Assembly: GCA_947306585.1 (NCBI GenBank)
Contig: CAMZGX010000004.1
Coordinates: 1 to 39,087, forward strand
Origin: an uncultured Candidatus Saccharibacteria bacterium
Lineage (GTDB): Bacteria; Patescibacteriota; Saccharimonadia; Saccharimonadales; Saccharimonadaceae
Direction of reading: 5' to 3'
Length of the DNA: 39,087 bases
Part shown: positions 3,187-36,183 of the stretch, in pieces
Layout of the letters: every line of letters begins with the position of its first letter
Numbering within the stretch: the first letter of the stretch is position 1
The notes under the pieces: model-generated
The model's database searches: none
What the model was told of the DNA's origin: nothing
Seen by the model: the letters and a program-made list of their open reading frames with translations, nothing else
Program-made: the position numbers and the translations under genes

Positions 3187-6100
3187 TTAAAATCTGTCCA
3201 TCATTGCGTCATGATCTTCGCGAATTTGATCTTCTGATGCATTTTCGCCAGCAGACTCTTGGTTTGCTTGTGAATCATTGACTGCATTAACTTCTTCTGG
3301 AGTTGAAGGTTCTTGAATGTCCTGTGTACCAGGTTCCTCAGATTGTGTATCGCCCTTCCAACCAGATGTGTCTGAACCATCATAAGTTGCTTCGGTTTCT
3401 GGATTATTTGAACCACCACCATCGGCGTCCGTATTTCCGCCACCTTGGTCACCACCGTTTAGGAAGTCATCTTGTGCAACTTCAGACGATGATCCTGGAG
3501 TATTGTCGTTAACGTATCCATTGTCACCACCAGCTTCTGATACTGGGCCAGTTTCCTCTGGAGTTGGATGATCAATTACGGTCCATCCATCGCCTGGTTC
3601 ACCTGGAAGAATATCGGTTTTACCATCATACTCATCGCCAGTTCCTTCAGTACCAGTGCCTTCTGTGCCTGTACCCTCGGTGCCAGTACCTTCAGTACCA
3701 GTTCCTTCAGTACCTGTACCTTCCGTACCTGTACCCTCGGTGCCAGTACCTTCTGTACCAGTTCCTTCAGTACCAGTTCCTTCCGTACCTGTACCCTCGG
3801 TACCAGTACCTTCGTCACCAGTGCCCTCGTTTTCAGTACCTGTGCCTTCGTCACCAGTACCCTCGTTTTCAGTACCAGTGCCTTCGTCTCCAGTACCTTC
3901 GTTTTCAGTACCTGTGCCTTCATCACCAGTGTCTTCATTTTCAGTGCCAGTGCCTTCATCGCCAGTATCTTCTCTACCGGTACCCTCGTCACCAGTTCCT
4001 TCGGAACCAGTATCAGGTGTAATGTTTTCCCAGATAAGCTGACCACATTTGCCAGAGAAACCAATGATACGAATCTTTGACATTACATCCTGAGCTTCTT
4101 CATCGGTTGCATCAGCTGCAATAATACCGATAGCTTTGAGGAAGTTGTACTTGTATCCACCAATATCATTTTTATCAAGAATGTTTTGACCGTCTTCATC
4201 AACGAATTGAAGTGCGTCAAAGTCTTCGCGAGCAAGTACGCCATCTTTATCGATTGCATAGTTAATGTCTGAAGTACCATCCTCAAGCTGCATTTCATAT
4301 GCATAAAGTGAGCGGTGATGTGTTCCTTGCGCACGATGCTCAACTTGGAGATCGTAATTATCAACCATATCGCGATACATTTCTTTGTTGTATTCAGTGA
4401 GGGTTTCACGGAACTCATCATCTTGCTGTGCAAGATCAAGAACTTCGTTCATGTCTGCTAGTGAGGTAATACCACCTTCACGATCACCAATTACAACATC
4501 GGTACCGCCAAGTGCTGCGAACTGACCTTGTTCTACTGGATCATCGAGTACGTTAGCAAGACCTTCAGCGATTTGTTCAGCTTTCTGGACATCGGTAAGT
4601 TCTTCATTGCCCATGTCATAAAGCTCTTTAGTGAGGTTATGTTGGCCATGTTTTTCTTCGTAATCAAAGAATTCAGATGTGCCATCATAATCGCCAGCTG
4701 AGATATTGACTTCAATATCTTCTCCGTATGAAGTAGTGTTGACGAGATCACTTAACTCTTCACCTTTTTCAGCGTTTAGATCTACATTAAGGCTTAGATC
4801 TTCTGCAACTTCATTAAGATCAACTTCTGCATTGCCAGTGTCTTCTGCCTCAATTTTCGTTGGTTCCGGAGCTGTATTTCTATCAAAGAGACCAGCATTT
4901 TGCAATGCGCTACCAATCGACATAGTTGTGACAAGAGCAAGCAAAGCTGCATAGATAGTCTTCTTTAGAGTTTCTTTCTTACCTTCCTTAAGTGCTCTTT
5001 CAGCACCAGTCTTTGAACGTTTGTTACCCTTAAAGAAATTCTTTAATTTTGCAAACAAACCACGTTGTTCATCGTTTTCGAAATCATCATCATTGCCTTC
5101 GCCTTTTTCTGGTTTTCCATCATCTCCTTCAGGAGCTTTTGCTGCCTCTGCTGCTGCTTTTGCTGCCGCAGCCTTTTCAGCTGCCTCATTTTTCTTCTTA
5201 GCAACATAGAAATTACGAACTGCGATACGGCAAGATTCTTCATCAAAGACACCGTTACGGGTATAAACACCACGGACAGCTTCATCATTAAAGTAGTTGT
5301 CAAAGAATTCTTTCCATTCAGGATCATTATCTTTTTCACCTTTTGGATCGTCTTCTTCAGCGCCAGCTTTAGCACCTTCTGGTTTAGCTTCGCCAGCTCC
5401 TTTGCCATCTTCACCCTCTGCGGATTTAGCACCTTCTGGTTTAGCTTCGCCAGCTTCTGCACCTTCTGGTTTAGCTGTGCCAGCTTCTGCTGTACCAGCT
5501 GCAGCATTTTCAAGTGCTTTTATGCGTGCATCCATATCACGCATTGCTTTTTCTGAATCATGAATCTTAGCCAAGATTCTTTCATATGCAGCATTAGTTT
5601 CTTCATCAGTTTTACCTGATTTTTCAATTGCTTCCATCTCAGCACGAGCATCTTTATTAAGTTGCTCAGCAACTTTATAAGCTGCTCTTGCTTCTACTAA
5701 CTCTGGATCTTCGCCCTTTGGTTCTCCTTCTGGAGCATCAGCACTAGTAGCTTCAAATCTACTATTTTCGATAATTGCGTTTGATTCTTCAACAATTTTT
5801 TGTGAAGCTTCAATTTCATCGTTTAATTTCTTAACGCCGTTGTCGTATTCTTCTTTTGAAAGTTGACCATCAAGCATTTGAGTCTCAAGACTATCCAACG
5901 CTTTCTTAGCTTCAACAATACGAGTTTCAGCTGCCTTGCGATCGTTAACTGCTTTAGCAACTTCAGTTGAACCTTCAGCATTTTTAAGGTTTGCCTCAAC
6001 ATCAGCTTTAGCTGCTTGATATTCTTCTTCCGAAAGATCGCCATCAAGTTTACGGGTTTCGAGATCATCGAGTTTTGCTTTTGCTGCAGCTTGAACATCT

Positions 6101-6717
6101 TCTAATTTATCTGAAGTAAGAACTGCTTGTGATTCGCGAATTGCACGATCATTATCAGCAATTTCTTGATCTGCTGCTGCCTTAGCTGCTTGATATTCTT
6201 CTTCTGAAAGATCACCATCAAGTTTACGGGTTTCGAGATCATCAAGTTTTGCTTTTGCAGCTTCGTTTTTAGCGATTGCTTCATTGTATACAAGGCCTGC
6301 GTCTGCAGCTGCGAGCTTATCACCTTCGTTAACGAATTGGCTCTTGGTATCAGCTACTGCTTGGTCATATTCAGCTTCTGAATATTCACCATCAAGTTTA
6401 CGAATTTCATGATCTTCCAATTTATTTTCAAGTTCTTTATTTCTGCGAACTACATTATTGAAAGTTTCAACTGCTGACACAAATGTGCTGTTTGCAGCTT
6501 CAGCATCATTAATGTTTTCAGACTCGAGTAATTGGTTAAGTTCTTCGAGCTTGCGAGTTGCATTAGCCATATTCTTTTTAAGGTCTGGATGTTGCTCAAG
6601 ATATTCAAGTGCTTCAGGAACGTTTTCACGTACACGATCAGCAAAGGTTGGCATATCATTCATAGCTTCATCACCTACGATTGGTTGTCCAGCTTTAAAT
6701 TCATTACCACGTTCCAT
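3187..6717 (-). CDS. large repeat-rich single-TM surface protein
   Basis: 1176-aa ORF; helical repeats (KLDDLETRKLDGDLSEEEYQAAKA), Ala/Glu/Lys-rich region, one TM (KKTIYAALLALVTTMSIGSAL), C-terminal GTE/GTG repeat stalk; SD present. Confidence 0.85.
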   Translation of the reverse strand: MERGNEFKAGQPIVGDEAMNDMPTFADRVRENVPEALEYLEQHPDLKKNMANATRKLEELNQLLESENINDAEAANSTFVSAVETFNNVVRRNKELENKLEDHEIRKLDGEYSEAEYDQAVADTKSQFVNEGDKLAAADAGLVYNEAIAKNEAAKAKLDDLETRKLDGDLSEEEYQAAKAAADQEIADNDRAIRESQAVLTSDKLEDVQAAAKAKLDDLETRKLDGDLSEEEYQAAKADVEANLKNAEGSTEVAKAVNDRKAAETRIVEAKKALDSLETQMLDGQLSKEEYDNGVKKLNDEIEASQKIVEESNAIIENSRFEATSADAPEGEPKGEDPELVEARAAYKVAEQLNKDARAEMEAIEKSGKTDEETNAAYERILAKIHDSEKAMRDMDARIKALENAAAGTAEAGTAKPEGAEAGEAKPEGAKSAEGEDGKGAGEAKPEGAKAGAEEDDPKGEKDNDPEWKEFFDNYFNDEAVRGVYTRNGVFDEESCRIAVRNFYVAKKKNEAAEKAAAAKAAAEAAKAPEGDDGKPEKGEGNDDDFENDEQRGLFAKLKNFFKGNKRSKTGAERALKEGKKETLKKTIYAALLALVTTMSIGSALQNAGLFDRNTAPEPTKIEAEDTGNAEVDLNEVAEDLSLNVDLNAEKGEELSDLVNTTSYGEDIEVNISAGDYDGTSEFFDYEEKHGQHNLTKELYDMGNEELTDVQKAEQIAEGLANVLDDPVEQGQFAALGGTDVVIGDREGGITSLADMNEVLDLAQQDDEFRETLTEYNKEMYRDMVDNYDLQVEHRAQGTHHRSLYAYEMQLEDGTSDINYAIDKDGVLAREDFDALQFVDEDGQNILDKNDIGGYKYNFLKAIGIIAADATDEEAQDVMSKIRIIGFSGKCGQLIWENITPDTGSEGTGDEGTGREDTGDEGTGTENEDTGDEGTGTENEGTGDEGTGTENEGTGDEGTGTENEGTGDEGTGTEGTGTEGTGTEGTGTEGTGTEGTGTEGTGTEGTGTEGTGTEGTGTEGTGTEGTGDEYDGKTDILPGEPGDGWTVIDHPTPEETGPVSEAGGDNGYVNDNTPGSSSEVAQDDFLNGGDQGGGNTDADGGGSNNPETEATYDGSDTSGWKGDTQSEEPGTQDIQEPSTPEEVNAVNDSQANQESAGENASEDQIREDHDAMMDRF
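3640..4010 (-). repeat. in-gene minisatellite encoding (TEGTG)n and (TGDEGTGTENEG)n
   Basis: 15-bp units with a visible 60-bp higher-order register (ttccgtacctgtaccctcggt at 3721 and 3781), followed by about 36-bp units. Confidence 0.9.
5845..6432 (-). repeat. four diverged repeats of a helical 'KLDG.LSEEEY' module
   Basis: ALDSLETQMLDGQLSKEEY, KLDDLETRKLDGDLSEEEY (x2, nearly identical DNA), KLEDHEIRKLDGEYSEAEY. Confidence 0.85.
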
Positions 6718-11792: not shown

Positions 11793-12056
11793 TTATGCGT
11801 CGCGCATAATATAAGTAACTTCCTCGAACTGTGGAAGTTTACCTGCCCACTTTGCAATTACTTTTGAACTTCCATCAGTTACACAAACTGTTGGATATTG
11901 CACAATATCGTGATGTGTTGCAAAGAGTTCACCATGAATTGTTTCTGGATCTTCGAGCTCAACATCATAACCAGTCTCTCGCTTAAATTCTGTCATCCAG
12001 TCAAAAGCTTCTCTGGTATAATCCGTGTTATCTCTACAAACCATTACCACCCTCAT
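11793..12056 (-). CDS. thioredoxin/glutaredoxin-fold-like small protein without CXXC
   Basis: MRVVMVCRDNTDYTREAFDWM...IVQYPTVCVTDGSSKVIAKWAGKLP: 'YPTV' cis-Pro-like motif; SD present. Confidence 0.6.
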   Translation of the reverse strand: MRVVMVCRDNTDYTREAFDWMTEFKRETGYDVELEDPETIHGELFATHHDIVQYPTVCVTDGSSKVIAKWAGKLPQFEEVTYIMRDA

Positions 12057-12067
12057 AGAATTCCTTT

Positions 12068-12523
12068 CTACTTATTATTTGATTCACGTTGCGAACGAAT
12101 GATATTCTCGAAGTCCTCAAGAGTTTTGAATTCCAAGAAGACTGATGCAAAGCGGACGTATGCAACTTCATTAATTTCAGCGAGTACGCTTAAAATTGCG
12201 TGTCCAATCTCTTTAGATGCAACTTCGTCGCGTCCGAGATCGTAAACTTTTTCTACAACTTTGTTAACAACATCTTCAACCTCAAGGTCGGAATTAAAGA
12301 ACTTTCCGACACTTCTTCTGACCGCGGTGAGGAGTTTATCGCGGTCAAATTGTTCTTTGTTGCCAGAGCTCTTTCTGACGACGAGTGCTGGCATTTCAAT
12401 ACGTTCATAAGTTGTGAAACGTTTACCGTCTGCGGTTACGCGACGACGACGAATCATAGTTCCATCAGGAGTCTCACGGCTTTCAAGAACTTTTGAATCC
12501 CCGATCTTAATTCCGTTAGCCAT
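12068..12523 (-). CDS. nrdR: NrdR-family ATP-cone regulator, degenerate zinc ribbon
   Basis: SKVLESRETPDGTMIRRRRVTADGKRFTTYERIE, FDRDKLLTAVRRSVGK, SKEIGHAILSVLAEINEVAYVRFASVFLEFKTLEDF. Confidence 0.9.
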   Translation of the reverse strand: MANGIKIGDSKVLESRETPDGTMIRRRRVTADGKRFTTYERIEMPALVVRKSSGNKEQFDRDKLLTAVRRSVGKFFNSDLEVEDVVNKVVEKVYDLGRDEVASKEIGHAILSVLAEINEVAYVRFASVFLEFKTLEDFENIIRSQRESNNK

Positions 12524-12547
12524 GTCTCCTCCTTAGTATTTTCTTAA

Positions 12548-13705
12548 TTATTTTTTGCCACGAAGTCTTGCGCGAAGTGAAGGTGGAATATCCAAATCAT
12601 CTTCCTCGGTCTTGTTGACCTTTTCCCAAGCACTAGTGTCAGTGGTTTCTTCAGCTGCAATAGTGCCAGCGTCTGCTGCAGGAACATCGTAAGCAGTATC
12701 TTGATATGCTGCTTCGCGATCTGCTGCGATCGCTTCTTCAGCACGTTTCTTGCGATAGTAATCTGAATCGAAACCAGTTGCGACAACTGTGATAACGATT
12801 TCTTCTTGAAGTTCTGGGCGGATTGATGCACCAAAGATGATGTTTGCATCTGGAGAAACTGCACCAGTAATTTCTTCTGCAGCTTCTTGGATTTCGCTCA
12901 TAGACATATCGTAACCACCAGCGACTGAGAAGAGGACACCTCTTGCACCATCGATCTTAACTTCAATAAGTGGTGATTCAATAGCTTGACGAGCAGCGAT
13001 CTTTGCACGGTTCTCACCTGATGCACGACCAATACCCATAAGAGCTGAACCTGCGTTCTTCATGATTGACTTAACATCAGCGAAGTCGAGGTTGATAAGT
13101 GCATGTTCAGTAATAAGTTCTGAAATACCTTGGACACCTTGGCGAAGTACATCGTCAGCAATCTTGAAGGTTTCAAGAAGTGGTGTTCTTGGATCGATAG
13201 TCTGGAGAAGACGATCGTTAGGAATGGTGATAAGTGCATCTACTTCGTTTGAAAGCTCAGCAATTGCGCGATCAGCATTCAATTTTCTCTGTTGACCTTC
13301 GAAGGTAAATGGTTTAGTAACCACACCAACAGTAAGAATATCACGATCTTTAGCTTCTTTTGCTACGAGTGGACCTGCACCAGAACCAGTACCACCACCG
13401 GCACCAAGTGTGATGAAGACCATGTCAGCGCCATCAAGGGCTTGACCAATATTCTCACGGCTTTCTTCAGCTGCTTCGCGACCTTTTTCAGGGTCACCAC
13501 CAGCACCAAGACCTTGGCCGATATGAACTTTAATATCAGCATCAGAATGATGTAAAGCTTGAGCATCTGTGTTGATTGCAACGAATTCAACTCCGTTGAG
13601 ACCAACTTCTTTCATACGGTTAATAGCAGAACCACCAGCTCCACCGACGCCCACAACTTTAATACTAGCTGTGCTCTCTACCTCAGTAGGTTTTATTTCA
13701 GGCAT
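12548..13705 (-). CDS. ftsZ: cell division protein FtsZ
   Basis: VVGVGGAGGSAINRM, GAGGGTGSGAGPLVA, NDRLL, NLDFADVKSIMKNAGSALMGIG. Confidence 0.98.
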   Translation of the reverse strand: MPEIKPTEVESTASIKVVGVGGAGGSAINRMKEVGLNGVEFVAINTDAQALHHSDADIKVHIGQGLGAGGDPEKGREAAEESRENIGQALDGADMVFITLGAGGGTGSGAGPLVAKEAKDRDILTVGVVTKPFTFEGQQRKLNADRAIAELSNEVDALITIPNDRLLQTIDPRTPLLETFKIADDVLRQGVQGISELITEHALINLDFADVKSIMKNAGSALMGIGRASGENRAKIAARQAIESPLIEVKIDGARGVLFSVAGGYDMSMSEIQEAAEEITGAVSPDANIIFGASIRPELQEEIVITVVATGFDSDYYRKKRAEEAIAADREAAYQDTAYDVPAADAGTIAAEETTDTSAWEKVNKTEEDDLDIPPSLRARLRGKK

Positions 13706-13775: not shown

Positions 13776-14987
13776 TTATTTTTTCTTTTTGAAGAGTCCA
13801 AATAGTGAAAATGCTTTGTGTTCTTTTTCGTCATCCACCCCAGAGAAGTTTCCATCGTCAGCCATCGAGAGCGCAAGGCCAACTGCGGTTGCCCATTCAG
13901 GCTTTTCAATTTCTTCAACAACACCCGAGAGGCCATTACCAGGAATGCCAACTCTTGTTGCCATTTTAAGATTTTCTTTAGCAAATCCAGCAATTCCCTT
14001 CATGTTTGAGCCAGCACCAGTGAGTACTGCGCCTTCAGGGAGTTTTTGAGCATAGCCAGCACGTTCAAGATGTTCGTAAACGTGGGCAAAGATATCTTCG
14101 AGACGATCTTTAACAATCTGATTGACTTCGTCTTTAAGGAAGGTTACGGTTTCACCATTATGGCGCATGGTAATTTCCTTACCAGTCTCAGTAAAATCAG
14201 CTGTTACATAGCGAAGTTTAATCTGTTCTGCAGCTTCAGTATTAAGTTCAAGTGAGATAGCTAAATCTTTGGTAATGTTGACCGCACCAGCTGGAACTAC
14301 GCCAACATACTGGAGATCACCCTCATCATAAACTGCAACTGAAGTGGTTGATGCACCGAAATCGATCACACAAACACCATTTTCCATCTGTTTTTCAGTC
14401 AAAACTGCTCTTGCAGCTGCTACTGAAGTTGGAATAAATTGCAAAACTCTAAGGGTTGCCTGGCCCATGGCACGACCAAGTGCATCTACACTAGGGGTAA
14501 GGCCAGAAATCACATTTGCTACGATCTCAATCTTATTTGCCATCATACCAAGTGGTTGACGAATGCCACTCTGGCCATCAAGCGTGTAATTCAAAGGAAT
14601 CACGTCAAGCACCTGACGATTGGTAGTGATTCTACCACTCATAGCTGTATCTTCAAGACGATTTAATTCATCTCTTGTAATTCCTTCATTTGAAGAAACC
14701 GCAATCATACCAGTTACCTGTTCTGATGAGATGTGTGCACCATTAATCGAGACATAAGCTGCGTCAACATTTACGCCGCCCATGCTTTCAACAGTTTTAA
14801 GAGCCCTATCAGTCGCTTCAGCTGGGCCCGAGAGATCAGTCACAATCCCTTTACGCATACCTTTTTCGTTTGGTGCTTCGCCATAAGCAATTACTTTGAC
14901 TCTCTCACCTGCGATTTCAAGAGCAACGGCACGAACATTTTCGGTACCAACATCAACTCCAAATGCATATTTAGATTGTTCTTCCAT
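13776..14987 (-). CDS. ftsA: cell division protein FtsA
   Basis: FGVDVGTENVRAVALEI, CVIDFGASTTSVAVYDEGDL, GAVLTGAGSNMKGI. Confidence 0.95.
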   Translation of the reverse strand: MEEQSKYAFGVDVGTENVRAVALEIAGERVKVIAYGEAPNEKGMRKGIVTDLSGPAEATDRALKTVESMGGVNVDAAYVSINGAHISSEQVTGMIAVSSNEGITRDELNRLEDTAMSGRITTNRQVLDVIPLNYTLDGQSGIRQPLGMMANKIEIVANVISGLTPSVDALGRAMGQATLRVLQFIPTSVAAARAVLTEKQMENGVCVIDFGASTTSVAVYDEGDLQYVGVVPAGAVNITKDLAISLELNTEAAEQIKLRYVTADFTETGKEITMRHNGETVTFLKDEVNQIVKDRLEDIFAHVYEHLERAGYAQKLPEGAVLTGAGSNMKGIAGFAKENLKMATRVGIPGNGLSGVVEEIEKPEWATAVGLALSMADDGNFSGVDDEKEHKAFSLFGLFKKKK

Positions 14988-19136: not shown

Positions 19137-19220
19137 ATTACCTCCAATTTCCTCTATTTTATCGCAAAAATGTATTTTTTACAACACGGTTTCTTCTCTA
19201 TTTTAAGGTATAATATAGCT

Positions 19221-21176
19221 ATGTATTACGAGGTTTTGCCAGCAAAGGTTTTTAAGAAATCCCCTCGCCTTGAGGATGGAATTCTCACCTATTCTTTCCC
19301 TGAAAACCTCAAGATCGGCACTCTCGTCGAAGTTCCGCTCGGTAAAAAGTCCACTGTCGGTATCGTTTATAAAAAAGTTAAACAGCCTGAAGGCGACTTT
19401 AAAATCAAGGAGATTTTAAGAACTCTCTACGACGAACCTCTGCCAAATCACCTCTTAAAAGCCATCCTCTGGTTATCTGAATATTATCTCGTTCCCCTTC
19501 CTCAGGTGGTTTCATTGTTCTTGCCAAATACTCTTGAGAAACGTCACAAAATCGCAGCCGAAAAAGACACTTTTAAAGATATCGACACCAAAAATATCCC
19601 ATTAAACTCCGCTCAAACCCGCGCTCTTAGCGAATTAGAGACGAAATCAGCGAACACAAAATTACTCCACGGCATTACTGGCTCTGGTAAAACCAACATC
19701 TACCTGACGCTTGCTAGCCGCGCCTACGGCCAAAATCAATCAACTATTTTGCTCGTTCCCGAAATCGCCCTCACTTCCCAACTTGTCCAAATCTTTCAAC
19801 AAACCTTTGGCGAAAGCGTAGTTTTAATCCACTCTAAACAAACCGACAAAACCCGCCGCGATACCTTCGAATCGCTCATGAATTCCAAATCACCAAAAAT
19901 TGTGATCGGACCTCGCTCCGCTCTTTTTGCACCCCTTAAAGATCTCGGCTTAATCATCATCGACGAAGCTCATGAATCAACTTATTTTCAAGATCAAACC
20001 CCAAAGTATTCTGCTCTTCGTTTAGCTAGCTTTATTGCAAAATCAAAGAATCTTTCTTGTATTCTTGGTACCGCCACCCCTAAAGTTGAGGATTATTACC
20101 TCGCTAAAACTCACAATTCCCTTGTCACCCTTAAAGAAAAAGCTAAAGATACCGCTATTAAGCCAGAAATCACTATCGTTGATTTCAAAAATCGTGACGA
20201 GTTCAGCGCTAACCGTTATTTTTCAAACGCTCTTCTTAAAAAAATCGAGGAAAACCTTAAAAATGGTTACCAAACCTTAATCTATCACAACCGTCGCGGT
20301 TCAGCCCCTCTTACTATCTGTGAATCCTGTGGTTGGCAGGCGCTCTGTCCAAACTGCTTCTTACCTCTTACCCTCCACACCGACTCCTATAAGCTACTCT
20401 GTCACACCTGTGGCTACAAAGAAAAAGTGCCAGTCTCCTGCCCAAACTGTAAACATGCTGAAATCATCCATAAAGGCTTCGGCACTAAATTGCTTGAAAC
20501 TGAGTTAAAACGCCTCTTTAAAACTGCCGAAATCGCGCGTTTTGATGGCGATAACGAGAAAGAAAATACTCTCGATTCCCTCTATTCCGACGTCAAATCC
20601 GGCAAGATCAACATTATCATTGGTACCCAAACTATTGCCAAAGGCCTCGATCTACCAAAACTTGCTACCGTCGGTATTGTTCAGGCTGATTCCGGCCTTA
20701 GTCTCCCGGATTTTTCATCTGAAGAACGCACCTATGACCTTATCAATCAGGTCCTAGGCCGTGTTGGCCGTGGTCACATCAAAGAAGCCAATGCCATCAT
20801 TCAGACTTTCCACCCCGAAAGCCCAGCCATCATCAACGCCATCAACTCCGACTACGAAGCTTTCTTCAATTACCTCATCAAAAAACGCCAGAAGTCTCAC
20901 CTTCCGCCGTTTTTCTATCTTGCAAAGGTTTCCGTCGTCTATAAAACTGAAAAAACTACCCTTTCTAAGATTAAAGAAGTTTATAAATCCCTCAAATCAA
21001 AAGACGGTATCTATCTCTCTGCGCCAATGCCAGCCTTTCATGAACGCACCCCAAGTGGTTTTTGCTGGCAAATTATCATCAAAGCCTCTAATCGCAAGTC
21101 TCTCACCGAGGCCATCAAATCTCTTGAGACCTTCCCTGGCATCCGTCTTTCGATCGATCCACCATCTCTTCTTTAA
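19221..21176 (+). CDS. priA: primosomal protein N' (PriA helicase)
   Basis: LLHGITGSGKTNIYL, IIIDEAHESTY, CESCGWQALCPNCF...CHTCGYKEKVPVSCPNC, GTQTIAKGLDLP. Start revised to MYYEVLPAKVF; TATAAT 6 nt upstream. Confidence 0.95.
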   Translation: MYYEVLPAKVFKKSPRLEDGILTYSFPENLKIGTLVEVPLGKKSTVGIVYKKVKQPEGDFKIKEILRTLYDEPLPNHLLKAILWLSEYYLVPLPQVVSLFLPNTLEKRHKIAAEKDTFKDIDTKNIPLNSAQTRALSELETKSANTKLLHGITGSGKTNIYLTLASRAYGQNQSTILLVPEIALTSQLVQIFQQTFGESVVLIHSKQTDKTRRDTFESLMNSKSPKIVIGPRSALFAPLKDLGLIIIDEAHESTYFQDQTPKYSALRLASFIAKSKNLSCILGTATPKVEDYYLAKTHNSLVTLKEKAKDTAIKPEITIVDFKNRDEFSANRYFSNALLKKIEENLKNGYQTLIYHNRRGSAPLTICESCGWQALCPNCFLPLTLHTDSYKLLCHTCGYKEKVPVSCPNCKHAEIIHKGFGTKLLETELKRLFKTAEIARFDGDNEKENTLDSLYSDVKSGKINIIIGTQTIAKGLDLPKLATVGIVQADSGLSLPDFSSEERTYDLINQVLGRVGRGHIKEANAIIQTFHPESPAIINAINSDYEAFFNYLIKKRQKSHLPPFFYLAKVSVVYKTEKTTLSKIKEVYKSLKSKDGIYLSAPMPAFHERTPSGFCWQIIIKASNRKSLTEAIKSLETFPGIRLSIDPPSLL

Positions 21177-34719: not shown

Positions 34720-36183
34720 ATGAAAACATATATCACAACCGCCATCCCGTACGTCAACGGCGTTCCACACCTCGGTCATGCTGAGGATTATTTACTCGCC
34801 GATATTTATTCTCGTTACATGATGATGTGCGGCCACGATGTACGTTTTCAGGCTGGTACCGATGAACATGGTAACAAGATCGAGAAGAAAGCACTCGACC
34901 TTGGCATCGATGTCAAACAATATGTCGATGAAAACTCAAAGAAATTCCAAGAGTTCATCAAAAAACTCGGCGTAGAATATACTGACTTTATTCGTACGAC
35001 CGATGCTGATCACGAAAAACGTGTCCAAGCAATCTGGAAACAGCTCGAAGCTCACATCTATAAATCTAATTACGAAGGCTTCTATTGTGAAGGCTGTGAA
35101 CGTTTTGTTACTGAAACTGAATATAAGGACAACAACGGCATCTGTCCAGACCACCAAAAGCCGTACGAACATCTTTCTGAGTCAAACTACTACTATCGTG
35201 TTTCTGATTTCAAAGATGCTATCCGCGAAAAAATCGAATCAAATGAACTTAAGATTCTCCCAGAATTTAGGAAGAACGAAATCTTAAAGCTGCTCGATAG
35301 CACTCCAGATGTATCAATCTCACGTCCAACCGCTCACCTTAAATGGGGCGTAAAAGTCCCTGGCGACGACGAGCAAGTCATGTACGTTTGGATGGATGCT
35401 CTTTCAAACTACATCACCGTTCTTGGTTACCCAGACAAAGATATTTCTGACTTCTGGCCAGCAACCGTTCAGGTTGTCGGTAAAGACATCCTTCGTTTCC
35501 ATGCTATTCTTTGGCCAGCAATTCTCTTAGGCCTCGGTCTTCCCCTTCCAAAGACTTTACTTTGCCATGGCTTCATTCTTTCTAACGGTCAAAAGATGTC
35601 TAAATCAATCGGCAACGTCGTTGATCCAATCGAAGTCTTAGACAAGCACGGTCTCGATGCTTTCCGTTACTTCTTCTCCCGCCACGTCGACACCTTCACT
35701 GATGGTGATTTTACCTGGGATAAATTCGAAGACGCTTACAACAACGAGCTCGCAAACGATTACGGCAACCTCGTCCAACGTCTTTCAAACCTCTGTAAAA
35801 AGAACGAAATCACTCGTGAATTCCTCGAGAAACGTAAAGTCCTAGAAGATGGCAAGTTCCGCAACACTTGGGATTCTGATGATGCTGAATACAAGCGCTT
35901 GATGGATAATTTCGAATTCACTAAAGGCATCGAATATGCTTGGGGTAAAATCAGTGCCGTCAACAAACGCATTGAAGACACCAAGCCATGGTCAGTTGCT
36001 AAAGAGAATCCAGAAGAAGCAAAAATCTTGCTCGCTTCCCTCGTCGCAGACCTTTTGAATGCTAACGAAATGCTCAAGCCATTCCTTCCAATCGCTGAGA
36101 AAGTTTCTGAAATCTTTACCGCTAAAACTATTGTTCCACCAGAAACTCCACTCTTCCCAAAAGAGTTTAAGAAAGAAGCTTAA
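34720..36183 (+). CDS. metG: methionyl-tRNA synthetase
   Basis: TTAIPYVNGVPHLGHAEDYLLADIYSRY, CEGC...CPDH, KMSKSIGNVVDP. Confidence 0.97.
   Translation: MKTYITTAIPYVNGVPHLGHAEDYLLADIYSRYMMMCGHDVRFQAGTDEHGNKIEKKALDLGIDVKQYVDENSKKFQEFIKKLGVEYTDFIRTTDADHEKRVQAIWKQLEAHIYKSNYEGFYCEGCERFVTETEYKDNNGICPDHQKPYEHLSESNYYYRVSDFKDAIREKIESNELKILPEFRKNEILKLLDSTPDVSISRPTAHLKWGVKVPGDDEQVMYVWMDALSNYITVLGYPDKDISDFWPATVQVVGKDILRFHAILWPAILLGLGLPLPKTLLCHGFILSNGQKMSKSIGNVVDPIEVLDKHGLDAFRYFFSRHVDTFTDGDFTWDKFEDAYNNELANDYGNLVQRLSNLCKKNEITREFLEKRKVLEDGKFRNTWDSDDAEYKRLMDNFEFTKGIEYAWGKISAVNKRIEDTKPWSVAKENPEEAKILLASLVADLLNANEMLKPFLPIAEKVSEIFTAKTIVPPETPLFPKEFKKEA

Follow-up and report, generated by a model that had tools for sequence, protein, structure and literature searches.

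A cysteine-less NrdR in the ftsA-ftsZ cluster of a Saccharibacteria family, a candidate zinc-free repressor of class III ribonucleotide reductase

The nrdR locus and its product

The window analysed here, a stretch of 39,087 nucleotides, belongs to G000 (709 kb, 81% complete), which like its closest named relatives is a genome of gut Saccharibacteria, most of them ruminant-derived. The genomes used in the analysis were mostly metagenome assemblies. The window has a conserved ftsA-ftsZ-nrdR cluster with a gene for a small conserved protein directly downstream (Table 1).

Table 1. Positions in the window of nrdR, its parts and its neighbouring genes
Feature	Position	Strand	Basis
ftsA, first gene of the conserved ftsA-ftsZ-nrdR cluster	13776..14987	-	ORF, synteny and sequence
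ftsZ, directly upstream of nrdR	12548..13705	-	Pfam, synteny; 24 bp from nrdR
Shine-Dalgarno AGGAGG of nrdR	12528..12533	-	Sequence reading; 4 nt before ATG
nrdR, Cys-less NrdR (151 aa, P0001)	12068..12523	-	ORF, translation, Pfam/NCBIfam, PDB NrdR chains
Ribbon domain (residues 1-45), all four Zn ligands missing	12389..12523	-	Pfam PF22811 match 9-40, alignment, AlphaFold2 strands
Residues 29-34 (VTADGK), former second CxxC knuckle	12422..12439	-	[TSA]x[DE]G; alignment
ATP-cone domain of NrdR	12125..12382	-	Pfam PF03477, 58.3 bits
Small conserved protein, 87 aa, directly downstream of nrdR	11793..12056	-	Synteny; 11 bp from nrdR

The nrdR product begins MANGIKIGDSKVLESRETPDGTMIRRRRVTADGKRFTTYERIEMP and has no cysteine at all. 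The initial annotation had described it as an NrdR homolog without any of the four zinc-ribbon cysteines, encoded directly downstream of ftsZ, and both statements hold: the translation is exact, Pfam recognises a zinc ribbon as well as an ATP-cone, and the preceding gene matches Pfam FtsZ. The in-frame codons 5′ of the ATG (...LRGKK*LRKY*GGD-M) contain two stops, which together with the AGGAGG ahead of the ATG indicate that the start codon is right. These stops also exclude an earlier start that could bring back a CxxC motif, a possibility which the annotation itself had raised.

The Zn_ribbon_NrdR domain (PF22811) scores 38.3 bits (cut-off 27.2), PF03477 is likewise above its cut-off, and all five PDB sequence matches are to NrdR. 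Pfam, AlphaFold2 and Foldseek agree in placing the ATP-cone after an N-terminal ribbon-like domain. The best NCBIfam family is TIGR00244 (NrdR) with 113.5 bits, below the equivalog cut-off of 124.65; this cut-off is missed by the NrdR proteins of most of the window's genus and exceeded by some Cys-less relatives (e.g., L216 and L217). The two CxxC motifs which bind one zinc in NrdR are absent, none of the four cysteines being present in this protein or in its clade. Elsewhere, the window encodes a 1176-aa protein (3187-6717, reverse strand) whose sequence includes a long tract of EGTGT/DEGTG repeats as well as repeats resembling a coiled coil.

Distribution and descent of the cysteine-less form

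NrdR loci were read from the genus, family, order and phylum of the window, giving 213 proteins in total. Within their first 50 residues 141 of these have no cysteine and 72 have at least four, with none having one to three. The Cys-less proteins span 39 genera, all in the window's family, a distribution far beyond chance. All four cysteines are kept in about 18 further genera of this family, in all other families of the order from which NrdRs were read and in the remainder of the phylum sample, and no convergent loss was found among 28 readable low-scoring NrdRs elsewhere in the phylum. The initial annotation had held that relatives with intact cysteines would make the loss a local variant; such relatives do exist, but the loss is clade-wide, and a local variant or a pseudogene was rejected. 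By eye no general loss of zinc proteins was seen, as PriA (19170-21176), MetRS (34720-36183) and the C-terminal site of NrdD keep their sets of cysteines.

A tree was built from the ATP-cone columns only, those of the ribbon being excluded. Its outgroup row, used only there, is an E. coli NrdR sequence that agrees with the aligned PDB chain. In this tree the Cys-less proteins form one clade (SH-aLRT 94) nested within the Cys4 NrdRs of the window's own family, so that one change of state suffices; this nesting and the same place after ftsZ point to common descent with canonical NrdR, and on account of the nesting horizontal transfer from another lineage was rejected. A single loss followed by vertical inheritance is therefore favoured, although it is not proven, since many forks of the tree lack resolution.

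The gene neighbourhood differs between the two forms. In other families, and in those Cys4 genera of the window's own family that branch off outside the others, ftsZ is usually followed by a gap, nrdR and then an RNR gene, the latter encoding a PF02867 protein of about 940 aa, and in several of these loci NrdR boxes lie in the ftsZ-nrdR gap. The Cys-less loci have a tight ftsZ-nrdR cluster with no adjacent RNR, ftsZ being linked to nrdR in 140 of 141 (compared with 50 of 72 Cys4 loci), and no convincing autoregulatory box pair was found at nrdR in the window's genus. As some Cys4 genera of the family have already lost the adjacent RNR, ftsZ-nrdR there being followed by the small gene of Table 1, relocation of the RNR gene probably preceded loss of the cysteines. 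The gene for the 87-aa protein is found downstream of nrdR in 139 of the 141 Cys-less loci. This protein has no Pfam match; by eye it appears thioredoxin-like, without a conserved CxxC, and its designation as a glutaredoxin was rejected as it has neither Pfam support nor that motif.

The ribbon domain and its candidate operators

Residue conservation was scored in 63 non-redundant Cys-less NrdRs, in which E14, R16, R25-28 (RRRR), R35 and E40 never vary. Their counterparts in the NrdRs of known structure are D15, R17, R26-29, R37 and E42. In Streptomyces coelicolor NrdR, D15 and R17 make base contacts while R26-29 and R37 contact the backbone (PMC9110341), and in E. coli the ribbon dimer involves R27, R29 and E42 (PMC12176259). 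The DNA-contact set D/E15, R17, RRRR26-29 and R37 is thus present throughout the window's NrdR clade. Mean column identity in the Cys-less proteins is 0.83 for the ribbon versus 0.70 for the cone (0.70 versus 0.60 in Cys4 NrdR). In place of the second knuckle there is always [TSAN]x[DE]G, the G and the D/E each being present in 141 of 141 sequences, and in the window's NrdR the gap from RRRR to RFTTYE is 6 residues instead of the normal 7. The first knuckle has given way to a shortened N-terminus, usually with [FYIL]-[RKN]-I at its end.

Alignment and structure prediction had both been proposed as checks in the initial annotation. AlphaFold2, given only Cys-less relatives as input, predicts that the three-stranded ribbon sheet persists without the zinc ligands, with strands at 11-17, 23-29 and 35-41 and a pLDDT of about 91 for this block. 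Mean pLDDT is 90.4, versus 90.3 for a Cys4 control, and the first 10 residues have 75 versus 96 in the control. The top Foldseek matches of the model are NrdR structures (E-value 1e-13, TM 0.52-0.68, limited by domain orientation).

NrdR boxes upstream of nrd genes, which the annotation had also suggested looking for, were found. The RNR of the window's genus is of class III (NrdD) only, and in G000 the nrdD promoter (L133, ATG at 5484) has the boxes ACCCCACATTTAGTGG and ACACTAAATATAGTGG, 16 bp apart and overlapping TTGACA-17-TAAAAT. A pair of 16-bp boxes is present at 30 of 30 nrdD loci of the genus with a spacer of 16-17 bp, in keeping with known NrdR-box pairs at RNR promoters (about 15-16 bp, 24-27 in some). 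At all 30 the best-scoring pair of the whole 4.8-kb locus lies no more than 260 bp before nrdD, where about 5% would be expected per locus. The order of elements is -35, box 1, -10 in the spacer and box 2. In both boxes C4, A6, A8, T9, T11 and G13 never vary, and the conserved GC pairs are those on which S. coelicolor NrdR depends (PMC9110341).

A strict pattern for box pairs was run over 35 genomes of the genus with a reversed pattern as control. It gave 58 sites in 34 of the genomes (reversed control 0), of which 33 lie before nrdD, 22 before a gene for a detached NrdD glycyl-radical domain and 3 elsewhere; the only strict site of G000 (G000:C5:12364-12405) lies at nrdD. Of about 60 decoy palindromes, two reached the score of the real consensus, owing to the core positions they have in common with it. 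The Cys4 relatives G062, G065 and G119 also carry boxes of this kind at nrdD, so recognition seems to have been unchanged when the cysteines were lost. No second NrdR was found in genomes of the window's genus (one TIGR00244 match per genome), leaving the Cys-less protein as the only known candidate to read these boxes.

Several other Cys-less genera have a class I-like PF02867 RNR of about 805 aa located elsewhere in the genome. The promoter of this gene usually lacks the strict two-box pattern, and the operator argument is accordingly strongest for genera that carry nrdD. In G067, G072, G091, G097 and G110, strict box pairs lie 1.6-6 kb past the far end of the PF02867 RNR gene and perhaps control another gene of the cluster. 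Three tandem boxes precede nrdD in a further Cys-less genome (G099:C3:52006-52078), which also has several other box pairs.

Putative function, known counterparts and associated genes

NrdR turns down the synthesis of DNA building blocks. It is considered a zinc-ribbon repressor that is conserved throughout the bacteria, and it has been put forward as a target for antibiotics. A search of the open-access literature yielded no paper mentioning NrdR together with Saccharibacteria or Patescibacteria. The Cys-less protein is, with high probability, a vertically inherited zinc-free NrdR that would still repress class III RNR through unchanged NrdR boxes, and it probably works without metal. Both zinc knuckles would have been replaced together, one by a hydrophobic x-[KRN]-I pair at the short N-terminus and the other by [TSA]x[DE]G as a tight turn, and this turn and hydrophobic packing would most likely stabilise the arginine sheet in place of zinc. 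The sheet, which carries the DNA-binding arginines and would also form the ribbon-dimer interface, appears to be retained. The ATP-cone is expected to sense dATP/ATP, the (d)ATP-loaded protein forming a tetramer that would bridge both boxes and block the nrdD promoter; nrdD and, in many relatives, the gene for the detached glycyl-radical domain would thereby be placed under nucleotide control. Against this reading, added zinc raises the binding of E. coli NrdR to DNA, and the zinc-binding region has been reported as crucial for DNA binding in Streptomyces (PMC4898720). A zinc-free NrdR would thus need compensation, here put forward as a model.

Of the two readings offered in the initial annotation, the zinc-free DNA-binding fold is supported by the box pairs at the RNR promoters of the genus, which weigh most, by the invariant contact and ribbon-dimer residues and by the predicted ribbon. 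The other, a regulator repurposed as a nucleotide sensor (or here also as a protein partner) with DNA binding lost, could draw on the missing zinc ligands of the DNA-binding domain and on the fixed place of the gene in the ftsZ cluster and not beside RNR. It is nevertheless very unlikely, since operator and ribbon domain are both retained: in a genus that yielded no second NrdR the boxes are kept in 34 of 35 genomes, the contact arginines do not vary and the ribbon, more than the cone, is the most conserved part of the protein. Somewhat less remote, though still improbable, is a ribbon that holds its metal through other ligands such as conserved Asp/Glu (D9, D20, D32) or His. D20 and D32 are indeed conserved in at least 90% of Cys-less NrdRs, but the Asp residues sit in DG turns and not in clustered knuckles, and 69 of the 141 proteins have no His in their first 42 residues.

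It could also be argued that a different, unrecognised regulator reads the boxes, with the Cys-less NrdR being a relic or having another role. Bioinformatics cannot show what occupies a box, and other Saccharibacteria do possess a second, Cys4 NrdR-like paralogue; however, this paralogue was not found in the window's genus, and conservation across 39 genera is unlike that of a relic, making this account less probable than even the loss of DNA binding. That a wrong start, a frameshift or an assembly error hides the cysteines has a negligible probability, no support for it having been found and the in-frame stops and the agreement of 141 sequences refuting it.

The Cys-less NrdR shares with known NrdR (TIGR00244; 7p37 of S. 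coelicolor, 9fvr/9fxk of E. coli) its domain order, the SR, RRRR and RFTTYE blocks, the ATP-cone and the predicted fold, along with box pairs at RNR promoters that are spaced by about three helix turns. It differs in having no zinc ligands, in an N-terminus one residue shorter (often with a shorter second knuckle too) and in a gene that lies in the ftsA-ftsZ cluster without boxes of its own. DksA2 of Pseudomonas aeruginosa, a zinc-independent paralogue of DksA, is likewise a transcription regulator that lost its zinc-finger site and kept its function (PMC9213440), as the NrdR described here is presumed to have done. However, DksA2 exists alongside the zinc form as a paralogue for zinc starvation and still has two cysteines (PMC9213440), whereas the Cys-less NrdR is the only copy, with no zinc form found in the genus. 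The AltRPs have similarly lost structural zinc sites while keeping the same job, as is supposed for this NrdR, but they are paralogues expressed under low zinc and not a single-copy replacement that would act as a DNA-binding repressor. Zinc-free versions of zinc proteins are thus already known.

In a broader scenario, to which we give slightly less than an even chance, the metal-free form replaced the zinc form in one step within a bacterial family with the operator unchanged, making RNR repression independent of zinc supply and of thiol oxidation, at about the time that RNR moved away from nrdR and changed type. In Mycobacterium smegmatis, NrdR is inactivated by oxidation of the ribbon cysteines under hypochlorite (PMC5430705), and by analogy freedom from zinc supply and from such oxidation is a possible benefit of the loss. 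A clade of 39 genera that dropped its zinc site at once while its operator stayed as it was would amount to a natural experiment, separating the role of zinc in the fold from that of the arginine sheet in DNA recognition, and offers a way to a metal-free zinc ribbon that can be tested.

The second NrdR-like paralogue (L113-L132, L294-L302) has four cysteines, carries WRRR where NrdR has RRRR and matches the ATP-cone less well. It is present in most other Saccharibacteria families and in some genera of the window's family. In many genomes of the window's genus class III RNR appears to be split, with an NrdD of about 735 aa (L152-L163) lacking the glycyl-radical motif and a separate gene of about 150 aa with RITGYLVGTLDRWN (NRDD positions 532-562) and its own NrdR boxes; small glycyl-radical ORFs of the genus include L348, L356, L357, L359, L360, L364 and L374-L376. 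Other genomes of the genus have a full NrdD plus an extra glycyl-radical domain gene, an arrangement reminiscent of YfiD/GrcA, the spare part of pyruvate formate-lyase.
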